A stretch of 64,000 nt of DNA from Chthonomonadales bacterium. Its GTDB lineage: Bacteria > Armatimonadota > Chthonomonadetes > Chthonomonadales > CAJBBX01. The translations under genes were made by a program, and so were the position numbers. Below are positions 3,912 through 9,926 of this stretch, piece by piece. Each line of letters begins with the position of its first letter. The first letter of the stretch is position 1. The notes beneath the pieces were generated by a model. That model was not told the origin of the DNA and ran no database searches. It saw nothing but the letters and a program-made list of their open reading frames with translations. The stretch spans positions 1 through 64,000 of the forward strand of contig JADLGO010000049.1 of the NCBI GenBank assembly GCA_020849275.1. Reading direction: 5' to 3'.

Positions 3912-4838
3912 ATGCAACACCGGACGCACCACGAACAGCAGCTTGCCGTGCCGGTCGTCCGACCGGCCGAGGATGCGGGCCCGTCGCCGGCGGCGGGGCT
4001 GGAGCCAGCCGCCGACGAGGCCGACCGCCTGCTTGAGTCGTTCGCGCGGCTCTCGCGACGGCGGACCGGCTACCGGGGCGCGTGCGCGGCGCTCGGCGGC
4101 GCGCTCGCCGGCCTGTCGGCCATCATCGGCGCCGCGCTCCTCGTCTCGCCGCCCGCGGGCGCGCTGCGGGTGGTGCTCGGCCAGGACATAAGCGTCGGCC
4201 TGCTCTCGTGGGGCGCGCCGCGTGGCCACGGCTGGCCGGGCTGGTCGTGGCTCCTGCCTCTCGCGGCTCTGGCCGTGTGCGCGCTGGGAGCGGCACTCAC
4301 GCGGCGCGAGTGCGCGCGGATCGCGCGGGTCGCCCAGAGGCTGGCGCGTGAAGGCGATCTGCGAGCCATCGGGCCGCTGCTGGAGGCGCTCTACCTTCCC
4401 GGGCGGGCCTTGCGCGAGGATGTGGCCGAGGGGCTCGCGCGCCTGCTGCCGCGCGTCGGCCCCGAGGACCGTCCCCCGCTCGACGACCGGCAGCGCCGGC
4501 TCCTGCGCCGCTGCCTGGAGCGCCCTCCCATCGAGGCGGTCGGGCTCTGCGCCCCGATCCTGGACGCGTGCCGCCACGTCGGCGACGGGTCCGAGGCGGC
4601 GGCCGCCGAGCGCCTATCTCGAGGCGAGGGCCCGGCCCGGGGCGATGCGCGCGCGCGAGCCGCGGCGCTGGGCTACCTGGAGGCGATGGCGCGGCGCGTC
4701 GAGCGCATGTGCCAGGCCGCTACGCTTCTGCGCCCGCGCGAGTTGCGTGCCCTGCTGCGGCCCGCCGGACCGGGCGAGGCCGACCACTCGGCCCTGCTAC
4801 GCCCGCACGGCAACGACGGACCGGCCCCGACCGCCTGA
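3912..4838 (+). CDS. Membrane protein of unknown function with a helical C-terminal region
   Basis: The 308-residue protein has a charged N-terminus of about 55 residues, a hydrophobic Ala/Gly-rich segment (about 57-80), a second hydrophobic segment (about 112-130), and then about 170 cytoplasm-like residues of amphipathic helices rich in Arg, Leu and Ala that resemble degenerate HEAT-type helical repeats. I recognise no enzyme motif. ATG 3912 has only a weak ribosome site. It is convergent with the methylase/nuclease cassette and seems to be a single-gene unit with its own candidate promoter. Confidence 0.6.
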   Translation: MQHRTHHEQQLAVPVVRPAEDAGPSPAAGLEPAADEADRLLESFARLSRRRTGYRGACAALGGALAGLSAIIGAALLVSPPAGALRVVLGQDISVGLLSWGAPRGHGWPGWSWLLPLAALAVCALGAALTRRECARIARVAQRLAREGDLRAIGPLLEALYLPGRALREDVAEGLARLLPRVGPEDRPPLDDRQRRLLRRCLERPPIEAVGLCAPILDACRHVGDGSEAAAAERLSRGEGPARGDARARAAALGYLEAMARRVERMCQAATLLRPRELRALLRPAGPGEADHSALLRPHGNDGPAPTA

Positions 4839-4881
4839 GGCGGGCGCGTCTCCATTGGACGCCCCCCGGACACGCGCGCTG

Positions 4882-5901
4882 CTATCTCGCCCGATACTCG
4901 CGGATGCGTGTCCGATCAATCAGCAGGCTAATCGTCGGCAGGGTGAACACCCTGCCGTCTGTTGCCTGGAGCAGTCGCCGTATGTCCTCCCGACGGACCC
5001 TGAACCCTCGCCCCGCGATACAGGCGATCACGTCGTAGTCGCGGCCGGACTCGTCCCGGAGCGTTCTCAGACGCTGCACGCGCGCCACCTTGTCGCGCGC
5101 CGTGCCGTCGTCTTCCGTCAGCTTCGCCTCGATCACCGCCACGGGGCTGAACTCGTCGGGAACGATGAAATCCGGGGCCTGATCGAAGCCCGTGACCCTC
5201 TCGGCTCGCTTTGTCTCCCGGAAGCTCACTTTCGCCGCCGCAAGGACGTCCTTGACGGCTGCCTCGACCACCTCGCCGACCAGCTCGCTGACCGAATCCC
5301 GGTGCGAGGCGAACGGCCGGCCGAGGAAGCGCTCGTACAGCAAGACCGGATACGGGACGCCCAGGTCCGCCACCGCCTCCACGCTCTTGAGGCCCTCCTT
5401 CGTATCCGCCTTGTCCAGACGGTGCAGCAGCGTCGCAGGGAGCCGAACCGCCCCCGCGAGCAGGAGTTGAACCCCGGTCGCTATCATGGCCCGGATCCGC
5501 ATGTCGGTCACCGTCGCCCCGAGCCTGCGCGACTTCTGCGGCTCGATACGGATGCGCCGGTCGATGTTACGCGCGGCCCCCTGATCCACCGCCACGCCGG
5601 CGCTCGCCGTCGTGACGTACGCCCACTCCGGCGGCGTGAAGCCGAGAATGGCGCGGAACACAATGAAGGCGATCTGTGCTTCCTCGACGGCGGCTTCCAC
5701 GGTCGCGGGCGTCACCTGCCCGAAGCCGTGCGTCGCTCGCTTCAGGGCCTGGTAGCCACGCTCAAAGGTCGCGTAGTCGACGAACCCCTCGCCGCGCGGC
5801 ATCTCCAGGAAGCTGGAGCCTAGCTCCGCGATGACTTCGTCGATCAGGGGATCGTATGACAGCGAAGGACCGCCGTAATCGGCGTCAAAACGCAACGGCA
5901 T
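4882..5901 (-). CDS. PD-(D/E)XK nuclease-like protein, putative restriction partner of the upstream methylase
   Basis: This 339-residue protein has no recognised name. Residues 242-260 show APDF-(x)n-VIEAK, which fits a PD-(D/E)XK active site (Asp244, Glu258, Lys260) with a Glu-rich helix before it (around Glu213). After the core come a short basic helix and the strand YDVIACIA, as in type II restriction enzymes. Its start lies inside the end of the methylase gene (17-bp overlap), so the two are translationally coupled with the methylase first. Likely role: DNA cleavage in a restriction-modification or related defence unit. Alternatives are a DNA-repair nuclease or a specificity factor. Its base composition is less GC-rich than the flanking metabolic genes, which suggests transfer. 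Confidence 0.6.
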   Translation of the reverse strand: MPLRFDADYGGPSLSYDPLIDEVIAELGSSFLEMPRGEGFVDYATFERGYQALKRATHGFGQVTPATVEAAVEEAQIAFIVFRAILGFTPPEWAYVTTASAGVAVDQGAARNIDRRIRIEPQKSRRLGATVTDMRIRAMIATGVQLLLAGAVRLPATLLHRLDKADTKEGLKSVEAVADLGVPYPVLLYERFLGRPFASHRDSVSELVGEVVEAAVKDVLAAAKVSFRETKRAERVTGFDQAPDFIVPDEFSPVAVIEAKLTEDDGTARDKVARVQRLRTLRDESGRDYDVIACIAGRGFRVRREDIRRLLQATDGRVFTLPTISLLIDRTRIREYRAR

Positions 5902-8080
5902 CGGCCCGTTCCCCCTCCTTTGCCCATGCGAACAGGCCGTCGGCGACGGCGGGCGGCGCCTCGACGCTCTGCAGCCGTTCGGCCACCTGTTCCACCCTCG
6001 CGAGCGCGTCCATCGCCTTTCGAACCGTCTGCAGTTTCGTCGCTGTGGGCCGCGCGGCGTCCCACGTCGGCCGAAGGCACCAGATCGCCATGCGGGTGAT
6101 GTGGCCGAGCGCCGCGCAGCGGATGTCGCCTGCCGTGGGCTTCATGCCGGCCGAGCGAAGCTCCACCAGTTCCTTCGCCATGATCACTGCGAGCCCGTCC
6201 GCGTCATGGAACAGCCACGCGCGGCGGGCGACGCCGCGATCGCGGCACACGAACACTGTGTCGACGATCGACGAGCCCGTTCCGTGGATATGGATCGACC
6301 CGCCCATCTCTGCCGGGCAAGGCAGAGATGCGGAGCACGTCAACCCCGCGTCGAGGATCGCCATGCCGACCGCCAGGTAGGCATCCTGCTGATTGTGATG
6401 GTAGGTGAAGACGAGGGGCGCGCCCGGCTTAAGCGCCCTTGCCATGCGCGTATACACATCGGCGAGCCCTTCCGCGAAATGCTCCAGGCCGCGCTCCGCT
6501 GTCGCGTTTCCGGTGAGCTCATCGGCGTTCCGCGTCGTGTCCCGTTCGAGCCCGGGCGACGCTTGCCCCATCAGCTTGCGCAGCCAGACGTAGCAGAAGT
6601 GCATCAGCTCGCCGTACTGCACCATGCCGTAGTACGGAGGGTCGGTGAACACCCCGTCGAGTGTCGCCGGGCCGAGATCCAGTGACGTCGCCGCGGCGCA
6701 CCGGATGTCGATCCGCCGCTCGCGCTGTTCGGGGCGCTGCGGGTTGGTCGCTCCGATCCACTCCCCGCGGATAGGCACGGTCGTCTTGCGCCGGCCCTCG
6801 AAGGCCATCTCGAAGGGCGCCGTGCAGTACCGCTTGGCTTTGGCGTACTTCTCGATGATGTTGGTCCACCCGCCGGAGCCCACCGGCAAGGCGCTGCCTT
6901 TGCGAAGGCCGAGCAAGTTGGACTCAACCTGGACGTACCCGACGGGGAAACCGTGAATCGAGAAGATGTCCAGGGATTTGAGCGCCCACGTGTCGTAGCG
7001 GCAAAGCATGTTCTGGTATCGCAGGAGGTCCGACAGATTCGTGGCAAGCGCCCGCCGGATGCGCAGATCCTCCACCCTCCCGATCAGGCGCGCGCTCGTC
7101 TCGAGCCCCAGGAGCTGACGCGCGTTGAACAGCTCCCGAAACCGCCGATAGCCCCAGCGGAGCAACCGCGAGGACTCGTCGCCTTCGGGTATCGGGTCGT
7201 CCGGCACGTAGCATGCCGCCACGTCCTGCCACGCGGCTTCGGCCTCCCTCACACGCGCCAAGTCGTCTTCGTCCGGTTTCTTGAACAGGCGGCCGGGGCG
7301 AGACTCCAAGTCCGGGTTGTGGTACTCGATGGCGAATAGCCGGTGCGGCGGCGGCCCCTCTCCGTGGAACGGCGCGGAATTGACGTGGCCGCAATGCGGG
7401 CAGGCGCACCTGTTGCGCGAAACGGGCCCGTCCGTCGTCAACAGCCCTCCGCACCCGCACGCGCCGGGGCGCGCGGGATCGGCGACCTCATTGAGGTCGC
7501 CGCACGCCGGGCAGACGAGCACATACGACGTATGCCGCGAGTCCTCGGCCAGCACGTACCCCGGAAACAGGTCGAAACTCCTTCGACAGGCCGCGCACGT
7601 CGCGGTTTTCACCCACAGGTAGTACTTAACCCACGCGTCGGTGCGGCCCGTGACCGGGCACTTCGTCCTGTAGAGATGCCCCAGCGCCTCCGAGAGCCGT
7701 CCGACCACCTCCGCGGCCTTCTCCGCATAGGCACGGAGGTCGATCGCGTCCATCTCTTCGCGCACGACCCAGGTCGCCATCGGGTTGATGTCCGTCCCGA
7801 TGACGTTGCACCCGAGCCGGTTCGCTTCCAGCAGCGGCGTGCCGCCGCCCATAAAGGGATCGGCGATCGTCACGCCCTCGAAGGCGTTGGGGCGATAGTA
7901 CGTTTGCTCGACCGGCCCCCCCCCGAACTCCGAGAGCAGCAGCCCGCGGAACAGCGTTCCCGGCCGCCGCGCGAACCACTTGTGGACCGCGATGATTGGC
8001 CGGTAGTTCTGCTGGATCTGCTTCTCACGCAGCGCCAGGGATGCGATGAGCCCAATGCTGTAGTTCTGCTCTATGGACAT
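5885..8080 (-). CDS. DUF1156-type adenine-specific DNA methylase with Zn-ribbon (COG1743-like)
   Basis: A 731-residue SAM-dependent DNA methyltransferase. The N-terminus has VHKWFARRP (32-40), typical of DUF1156. Motif I ADPFMGGGTP lies at 73-82 and GTDINP at 95-100; motif IV TDPPYYG lies far downstream at 479-485, an alpha-type order. The region between holds paired cysteines (162/165, 190/193, 208/210, 225/227/230) that look like one or two zinc ribbons, probably for target recognition. It should methylate adenine N6 (or cytosine N4) at an unknown site. ATG 8080 has only a weak ribosome site; a TATCAT at 8129-8124 may be a -10 box. The overlapping nuclease-like gene downstream suggests a two-gene restriction-modification cassette. 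The usual DUF499 or helicase neighbours of this family are absent. Confidence 0.85.
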   Translation of the reverse strand: MSIEQNYSIGLIASLALREKQIQQNYRPIIAVHKWFARRPGTLFRGLLLSEFGGGPVEQTYYRPNAFEGVTIADPFMGGGTPLLEANRLGCNVIGTDINPMATWVVREEMDAIDLRAYAEKAAEVVGRLSEALGHLYRTKCPVTGRTDAWVKYYLWVKTATCAACRRSFDLFPGYVLAEDSRHTSYVLVCPACGDLNEVADPARPGACGCGGLLTTDGPVSRNRCACPHCGHVNSAPFHGEGPPPHRLFAIEYHNPDLESRPGRLFKKPDEDDLARVREAEAAWQDVAACYVPDDPIPEGDESSRLLRWGYRRFRELFNARQLLGLETSARLIGRVEDLRIRRALATNLSDLLRYQNMLCRYDTWALKSLDIFSIHGFPVGYVQVESNLLGLRKGSALPVGSGGWTNIIEKYAKAKRYCTAPFEMAFEGRRKTTVPIRGEWIGATNPQRPEQRERRIDIRCAAATSLDLGPATLDGVFTDPPYYGMVQYGELMHFCYVWLRKLMGQASPGLERDTTRNADELTGNATAERGLEHFAEGLADVYTRMARALKPGAPLVFTYHHNQQDAYLAVGMAILDAGLTCSASLPCPAEMGGSIHIHGTGSSIVDTVFVCRDRGVARRAWLFHDADGLAVIMAKELVELRSAGMKPTAGDIRCAALGHITRMAIWCLRPTWDAARPTATKLQTVRKAMDALARVEQVAERLQSVEAPPAVADGLFAWAKEGERADAVAF

Positions 8081-8168
8081 GCGTCGTCACGCGCGCTTTC
8101 CGCTTCGCGAGGGTACTGCAATGATGATACTCTCGCCGGCGCGGACCTGCCGGAGCGCCGGCCCGCGC

Positions 8169-9926
8169 CTACTCCGCCTCGTAGCGGTAGCGGAAGCGCC
8201 CGTCCGGCGCCGCGTCGCCGCTCACGTAGAAGTCCATCACGTCGCCGGCGCGCTGAACGTTGTCGGCCCACTTGAAGTCCAGACGCAGGCCGCCGCCAGC
8301 GGCGATGCCCAGCGCCTCGCGCGGAACGGCCAGGTGCAGGTCGGCGCCCTCCACGCGGTAGCCCACGCGCGCCACGCGCTCCCACCGCCAACCGCCCGCG
8401 TTCCTCTCCAGCCACGTCTCGCCAGCCGACTCCACGTCACGGTTCACGATGTAATCGAACCCTTCCCAGCCGGTCGACGCGTCGCCGTCGGAGTCGATCA
8501 GCAGCCACATCCAGTTGGGGTCGGTCCGCGGCGTGAGCGGCGCGCGCGCGCGGACGTAGAAGTAGACGTTGCGATCGTCGCGCGCCACCTTCGCCAGCAC
8601 GAGGTCGTTGCGCCCGCTGGCGTCGGCGTAGTGCGTTCCGCCAGCGCCGTCGTGGTCGCGGCGGAGCGTGTCGCCGACAGGGTCGCCGAACGCCGGGCCG
8701 ACCCGAGCCCACTGGTCGAAGCCGCCGCCGAGACGAATGGTCCGGGGGCCAGAGGCGGGCGGCAGAGGGTCTAGACCCTTGTACCGGCGGACACTGGCCA
8801 CGAGCTGATAGTAGTAGTTGTCGCGGTGCGACGCCCGGGCCGGCTCGATGTCGCGGCTGAACTCCTGCGTGAACTGGTCGACGAAGACGATGGGGCCGTC
8901 GGGCTGACCCCAGCGCCCGGCAATCCACTCGTTCCAGCCGGTCACCATCACGAACGGCGGGTCGAGCGCGAAGGCGCGCTTCCACTGCTCGCCGGCGTTG
9001 TAGCCGCGGTCGACGGCGCCGGGCCCCGTCTCCATGTGCCCGTCGTGGAAGCTGCGCCCGCGCGCGTCCAGGTTGCTCATGTTGGTGACCTGGCCGTCCG
9101 ACCGGCGCAGGTTCTGCGCCACGGACACGTTGACCTGCTCGGGCTTGGCCGGGTCGTCGGTGTAGCCGTAGGGCTGCGGGTAGGTGGCCTCCCAGTGCCA
9201 TGCATAGGGCGTGTTCACCATCTCGAACGGCCAGTGGGCCCGCCGCAGGGTGAAGAAGGCGCGCACCTCGGGGCTTGCCGCCTCCGGGTCGCAGATGAGC
9301 AGCGGCTTGCCCTGCCATTTGAACCAGAGCTCTTCGTAGAGCCCCTTGCTGTAGAGCTCGTCATAGAGCCTCTGCGCGGTCTTGCCGGCCTCGGTGTTCA
9401 CCATGAACGCGATCGCGGGCGTGCGCCCGCCCTCGCGCCGCACCTCGCTGAATACCTCGCAGAGCTTCATGTACACAGCGGGATACGTCACGGCGTTGGT
9501 GGTGTCGAAGATGAGCGTGTCGATGCCGGCATCGGCCAGCAGGGCGGCGTGCCGCCGGAGCACCCAGGCGTCGTCGCCCAGGTAGTAGCCGTAGAGCGGC
9601 TCCCCCCAGTAGTGGTTGGCGCCGATCGGCCCCCAGAGCGGCGAGGCGGGCTTCTTGAGGGCGTCGGGGTCAGCGGCCAGGATGCGCGTCACGTCGTACG
9701 GCCCGTCCCAGTTGGGGCTCTTGCCGCCGCGCTGGTCGTGCCAGAGAAAGTAGAAGATGCCGACGAAGCGGCCTGGACGCGGCGGCCCGACCTCCGCCGA
9801 CGTGGGGAGCGCCCGCCCGAGGTCATCGACGGCGGGCCAAGGACACCCGGGAGTTGCGGCGGCTTCGGCGGCCGCGGCGACCACGCAAAGGAGCGCGGCG
9901 ACGAGCATCAGCGCGAACGGGTTCAT
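8169..9926 (-). CDS. Secreted GH99-like (WbsX-type) glycoside hydrolase with C-terminal sugar-binding-like domain
   Basis: The 585-residue protein has a signal peptide (about 1-23, ending in EAAA). Its catalytic-like half opens with GRFVGIFYFLWHD and contains ALLADAGIDTLIFDTTNA and VTGWNEWIAGRW, the pattern of GH99-like/WbsX endo-acting proteins. The last 190 residues (RDDRNVYFYVRARAP, LLIDSDGDASTGWEGFDY) resemble a CBM9/DOMON-type beta-sandwich that binds carbohydrate. AAGGAG 8 nt upstream supports ATG 9926. It is the last gene of a probable three-gene minus-strand unit with the PHP-like and secreted proteins. The substrate is unknown; an alpha-mannan or related glycan is possible by analogy. 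Confidence 0.75.
   Translation of the reverse strand: MNPFALMLVAALLCVVAAAAEAAATPGCPWPAVDDLGRALPTSAEVGPPRPGRFVGIFYFLWHDQRGGKSPNWDGPYDVTRILAADPDALKKPASPLWGPIGANHYWGEPLYGYYLGDDAWVLRRHAALLADAGIDTLIFDTTNAVTYPAVYMKLCEVFSEVRREGGRTPAIAFMVNTEAGKTAQRLYDELYSKGLYEELWFKWQGKPLLICDPEAASPEVRAFFTLRRAHWPFEMVNTPYAWHWEATYPQPYGYTDDPAKPEQVNVSVAQNLRRSDGQVTNMSNLDARGRSFHDGHMETGPGAVDRGYNAGEQWKRAFALDPPFVMVTGWNEWIAGRWGQPDGPIVFVDQFTQEFSRDIEPARASHRDNYYYQLVASVRRYKGLDPLPPASGPRTIRLGGGFDQWARVGPAFGDPVGDTLRRDHDGAGGTHYADASGRNDLVLAKVARDDRNVYFYVRARAPLTPRTDPNWMWLLIDSDGDASTGWEGFDYIVNRDVESAGETWLERNAGGWRWERVARVGYRVEGADLHLAVPREALGIAAGGGLRLDFKWADNVQRAGDVMDFYVSGDAAPDGRFRYRYEAE

Follow-up and report, generated by a model that had tools for sequence, protein, structure and literature searches.

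A horizontally mobile two-gene cassette that pairs a BREX-related-type methylase with a predicted PD-(D/E)XK endonuclease

Introduction

BREX-related (BR) or Hma systems combine a COG1743/DUF1156 methylase with a DUF499 ATPase and an SNF2 helicase-nuclease, often together with PglZ, and the COG1743-DUF499-SNF2 system was described earlier (PMC7641849). Their methylases are N6-adenine enzymes that carry an N-terminal DUF1156 and, following core strand 2, a target-recognition insert (PMC12839542). Other arrangements relevant here are type IIG enzymes, in which restriction and modification reside in one polypeptide, type IV restriction, which cuts modified DNA and has no cognate methylase, and the type II endonucleases of the DpnII, BanI, BstEII and PvuII types.

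The present work concerns a cassette in a 64,000-nucleotide stretch of DNA from a Chthonomonadales bacterium (contig JADLGO010000049.1), referred to below as the window. Its methylase (M) is of the BR/Hma lineage and arranges DUF1156, motif I, the long insert and DPPY in the order found there, but M has 731 residues compared with 944–973 positions in the BR/Hma models, the nuclease (R) is a separate small protein, and the cassette and its recurring neighbours lack DUF499, helicase and PglZ. Gene structure, motifs, predicted fold, linkage, absence of partners, partner swapping and horizontal spread of the pair were computed. We assign a probability of about 0.86 to the reading that the M-R pair is a horizontally mobile two-gene type II restriction-modification system, formed by a BREX-related-type methylase and a stand-alone endonuclease.

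Results

Organization of the cassette

The cassette comprises the following features:

5885..8080, minus strand: M gene, 731 aa, DNA methyltransferase of the DUF1156 / BREX-related (Hma, COG1743-like) lineage, assigned by motifs and profile matches
4882..5901, minus strand: R gene, 339 aa, predicted type II restriction endonuclease, assigned by motifs and model fold
5885..5901, minus strand: overlap of the M 3´ end and the R 5´ end, 17 bp

Both reading frames are open, with M upstream and R downstream, and they overlap exactly as a preliminary description of this DNA had stated. Among the 77 loci that allow the overlap to be measured, 55 retain the same 17 bp, which indicates that it is not due to chance, and the arrangement points to co-transcription of the two genes and to coupling of their translation. 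A simple scan found no promoter-like or terminator-like sites at the cassette. M and R are two separate overlapping reading frames, which sets the pair apart from a fused type IIG enzyme. At positions 8169–9926, the window also encodes a 585-aa protein that has no Pfam match and whose homologues occur in 10 of 12 host-family genomes, at several places in each.

The methylase belongs to the BREX-related lineage

The following parts are recognized along M:

Residues 13–50 (about): DUF1156-like N-terminus, motif RPIIAVHKWFARRPGT
Residues 73–81 (about): SAM motif I, ADPFMGGGT
Residues 115–470 (about): long insert with a Cys-rich zinc-ribbon-like part and a probable target-recognition part
Residues 480–483: catalytic DPPY
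Residues 627–726: C-terminal helices

Motif I and DPPY are conserved across 33 family members, with the key residues invariant, and Pfam N6_N4_Mtase matches M above its cut-off; M thus contains both the SAM motif and the (D/N/S)PP(Y/F) motif of type II methyltransferases. DUF1156 is sub-threshold in the window M (Pfam, E 0.024) and is recognized in 25 of the 33 family members, with a best value of 5.5e-6. The NCBIfam anti-phage DUF1156 model NF042963 matches M at 4e-27, which is far under the 1000-bit cut-off of that model, and PADLOC HmaB matches at 9.5e-24. The AF2 model of M is confident (pLDDT 87.6, pTM 0.89), and the Foldseek matches obtained with it are mostly generic methyltransferases. 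The layout of M, from DUF1156 through motif I and the insert to DPPY, fits the description of the BR methylases (PMC12839542).

Plasmid-borne cousins with about 28% identity to M adjoin DUF499 genes or other multi-gene sets, in agreement with the earlier expectation that a DUF1156-type methylase is usually found in such company. Judged by sequence, M is a member of the BREX-related lineage and the cassette itself is not a BREX-related system.

A different arrangement was observed on plasmids of Acidiphilium, Tabrizicola and Tomitella (L089:3129-6112, L090:1543-4493 and L092:3180-6091), where a protein of ~270 aa is encoded directly upstream of an M-cousin methylase with a 4-bp overlap. These three proteins share 54–81% mutual identity and a PD...E-[IV]-K pattern (YPDFxLVxxxEGYE[IV]KGL), and together with the M cousins they possibly represent a second, unrelated compact methylase-nuclease pair.

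R is a predicted PD-(D/E)XK nuclease

R contains the following parts:

Residues 1–195: helical N-terminal domain
Residues 201–326: C-terminal PD-(D/E)XK domain, with E213, P243-D244 and E258-A-K260
Residues 264–271: invariant DDGTARDK stretch

The site Asp244, Glu258 and Lys260, proposed from the sequence in the preliminary description, is correctly placed, and these residues, together with E213 in the preceding helix, are invariant in all the 77 family sequences. Searches of R against Pfam, NCBIfam, PADLOC, PHROG and the PDB sequences returned nothing above threshold, and none of the known type II enzymes resembles R in sequence. A structure prediction had been suggested as a check for a nuclease fold, and the AF2 model (pLDDT 84) does contain one: a helical N-terminal domain is followed by a C-terminal helix-strands-helix-strand core that is typical of PD-(D/E)XK proteins. 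The pTM of 0.57 leaves the arrangement of the domains uncertain. With Foldseek, BstEII is the top solved match of the R model (probability 0.99, with a weak E of 7e-3), and BsoBI, EcoT38I and SgrAI are also among the matches, all of which are type II restriction enzymes. The Pfam matches of R to TPD, PDDEXK_11 and EcoRII-C are all weak and count here as no more than consistent with the fold.

Two genomes reached through a search of the phylum Planctomycetota (L110 and L111) encode distant relatives of R that pass the Pfam DpnII cut-off (24.0 and 29.8 versus 23 bits) and also come near RE_BanI. The R profile is joined by hhalign to the one with the 29.8-bit DpnII match over the catalytic domain, with a probability of 89.6 and an E of 1.9e-6. 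At both loci, an SPPY methylase lies upstream of the R relative and a second, DPPF methylase lies downstream. The DpnII-like endonucleases of these loci (L110:2732-7622 and L111:7360-10527) carry an E-S-S pattern instead of E-x-K; in L110, a GmrSD-family gene is located between the genes of the methylase/DpnII-like endonuclease cluster.

R is thus most likely a PD-(D/E)XK nuclease, predicted to be linked to DpnII, BanI and BstEII by its modelled fold and its distant relatives. It differs from these enzymes in that it has no sequence match to their families, possesses its own conserved helical N-terminal domain and has a partner methylase of another kind.

R is always linked to a methylase but can exchange its partner

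When 84,980 genomes, one per species, were scanned, 167 relatives of R were recovered, so that the family is represented at no fewer than 167 places in many phyla and in the archaea; the best 80 of these GTDB relatives were inspected. Adjacency of the homologous genes had been named beforehand as a check on the pairing, and a same-family M lies directly upstream of R in 78 of these 80 loci. A methylase of any kind is directly upstream in all 79 assessable loci (L071 ends at a contig edge), with the endonuclease encoded by a separate, adjacent gene as in type II systems. No third gene recurs around the 80 loci, which upholds the view that the cassette holds nothing else, neither DUF499 nor a helicase.

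The partner of R is not always of the M family. In L061, an unrelated SPPY methylase of 491 aa replaces the usual M, and no M of the usual family was found in that genome. The R of L061 is 66% identical to the R of L112, which has the usual M, and its methylase is 41% identical to the methylase beside the DpnII-like nuclease in L110. On a Microbacterium plasmid, a relative of R (32% identity) follows an M.PvuII-like TSPPY methylase of 308 aa, which places an R-family protein in a PvuII-type pair with the methylase gene first. M.PvuII-like enzymes are N4-cytosine methylases, in contrast to the window M with its DUF1156/BREX-related DPPY architecture. A nuclease that always accompanies a methylase, but a methylase of varying kind, is, as read from these loci, the pattern left by a protective, cognate methylase.

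The distances among R proteins correlate with those among M proteins (Mantel r 0.63), and none of 2000 permutations exceeded 0.13. One clade (L009, L012, L014, L015, L082 and L083) combines a window-type R with an M of another clade. Both the correlation and this reassortment are as expected if the pairs share specificity, which suggests that a single specificity may be common to the family.

R is disrupted beside a retained, coupled M in L014, L018 and L072, the M of L018 being partial at a contig edge. Although there are few such loci and L046 may be an exception, this is the direction expected if the loss of M were lethal. In L046, which is metagenome-assembled, an unrelated reading frame (L046:7600-8300) takes the place of residues 1–128 of M, and R is intact; this is perhaps an assembly chimera, or else a real truncation. 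Apparent stops in the M of L016 and L031 were rejected as breaks, since they affect no more than the 12 C-terminal residues and leave the enzyme whole.

The pair moves between distant hosts

R was found once among 61 relatives of the host and once in a 291-genome sample of its phylum, and in both cases the positive genome is the host itself. Records bearing the labels Sphingomonadaceae, Nitrospira, Acidobacteria, Cyanobacteria and others contain R at 72–80% identity, with 78–80% identical proteins in other phyla. The absence of R from 290 relatives, combined with such identities in other phyla, points to horizontal transfer. The composition agrees with the acquisition that had been proposed from a lower GC content: the cassette has 67.0% GC, the lowest of all the 3.2-kb stretches in the window (71.9%), and GC3 is 84–86% for R and M versus 89–93% for the adjacent genes. 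From these sequence comparisons, the M-R pair is taken to move as a unit between distant hosts, both bacteria and archaea. A clean empty site could not be demonstrated; the right-hand flanking gene has same-family orthologues, and the gene order around them is not kept. No relatives of R or M were found in deposited phage genomes. M-R pairs are carried by four contigs of a viral collection (L082-L085), which may be viral or may be mis-binned host DNA.

The host genome, which is 99.9% complete, contains no DUF499 and no PglZ genes, so these BREX-related partners are not supplied from elsewhere.

A candidate recognition site

Of 570 motifs examined for palindrome avoidance, none is conspicuous once corrected. 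Among the palindromic hexamers, CAGCTG shows the strongest depletion, both around the carriers (145 seen and about 319 expected; control, 177 of 273) and in the window flanks outside 4800–8100 (1 copy compared with 12.4 expected). The host genome (G000) has 192 copies in 4.8 Mb versus 3362 of the reversed word GTCGAC. CAGCTG is depleted as well in controls and in several cassette-free relatives; the number of sites per base is lower in three non-carrier genomes of the host family than in the host itself, and about 5000 sites occur in each of the carriers Leptolyngbya and Nodosilinea. With an M.PvuII-like partner in Microbacterium and controls that are depleted too, CAGCTG is a weak lead as a candidate target site.

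Discussion

The mechanism that we infer for the pair extends to site-specific cleavage, protection by methylation, the base methylated and phage defence. With S-adenosylmethionine as the methyl donor, M would methylate one base, most likely adenine at N6 in view of the DPPY motif and the BREX-related lineage, within a short DNA site of fixed sequence that it would read through its own internal insert. R would be translated from the transcript that it shares with M, by translational coupling, and its PD-(D/E)XK domain would cut the site of M when unmethylated, such that phage or plasmid DNA entering the cell is destroyed and the host DNA is spared by M methylation. Autonomous action of M is not guaranteed, by analogy with its nearest characterized relatives, which act in multi-protein systems.

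This last point gives weight to an explanation in which M and R form a single complex that recognizes an asymmetric site, methylates only one strand in the manner of BREX PglX and type IIL/III enzymes and cuts solely under a two-site or complex-dependent rule, with R lacking specificity of its own. The descent of M from methylases of multi-protein systems (PMC12839542), the widely conserved 17-bp coupling and the presence of only one methylase gene per pair would all suit such a complex. However, R is partnered by unrelated single methylases in L061 and Microbacterium and reassorts between M clades, which suits independent recognition, and its top fold match, BstEII, is an independent palindrome-cutting enzyme; we consider a single complex improbable. 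There is likewise a slim chance that a BREX-type methylase, which normally marks a single strand at an asymmetric site, has been turned into the protective half of a two-protein system whose co-translated nuclease works only in complex with it, by a compact mechanism between type II and BREX-related restriction.

The preliminary description had offered a compact restriction-modification type or a modification-dependent variant, and only the former is favoured by our results. If R were a type IV-like nuclease and M marked DNA for other reasons, a neighbouring methylase alone would be no proof of a protective role; but every assessable locus has a methylase directly upstream of R, from three families in all, a nuclease that attacked methylated DNA would be fatal to a host that also carried the adjoining methylase, and the three loci with a broken R have kept their coupled M (partial in one), which together make this reading very unlikely. 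Equally hard to credit is a degenerate remnant, in which a solo methylase has a non-functional R-like partner, or an Hma methylase served by distant genomic partners. Methylases of this kind do normally belong to multi-gene systems, but both reading frames are intact and the catalytic residues are invariant across phyla, and the lack of DUF499 and PglZ in the host genome, together with the lack of a third conserved gene at homologous loci, speaks against distant partners. The two-gene type II restriction-modification system therefore remains our preferred reading. The claim that such a system had not been described holds for the family libraries and open-access papers searched, and an automatic REBASE prediction may exist.

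The M-R pair links multi-gene BREX-related defence with simple type II restriction-modification, two groups that have been treated as separate. It suggests that a BREX-related-type methylase can protect against a stand-alone endonuclease, in which case the type of methylase would be no predictor of the effector. No model in Pfam, NCBIfam or PADLOC covers the R family, and present-day annotation of defence genes would overlook it. Its exchange of methylase partners opens a route to the recognition site and possibly to a new restriction enzyme.
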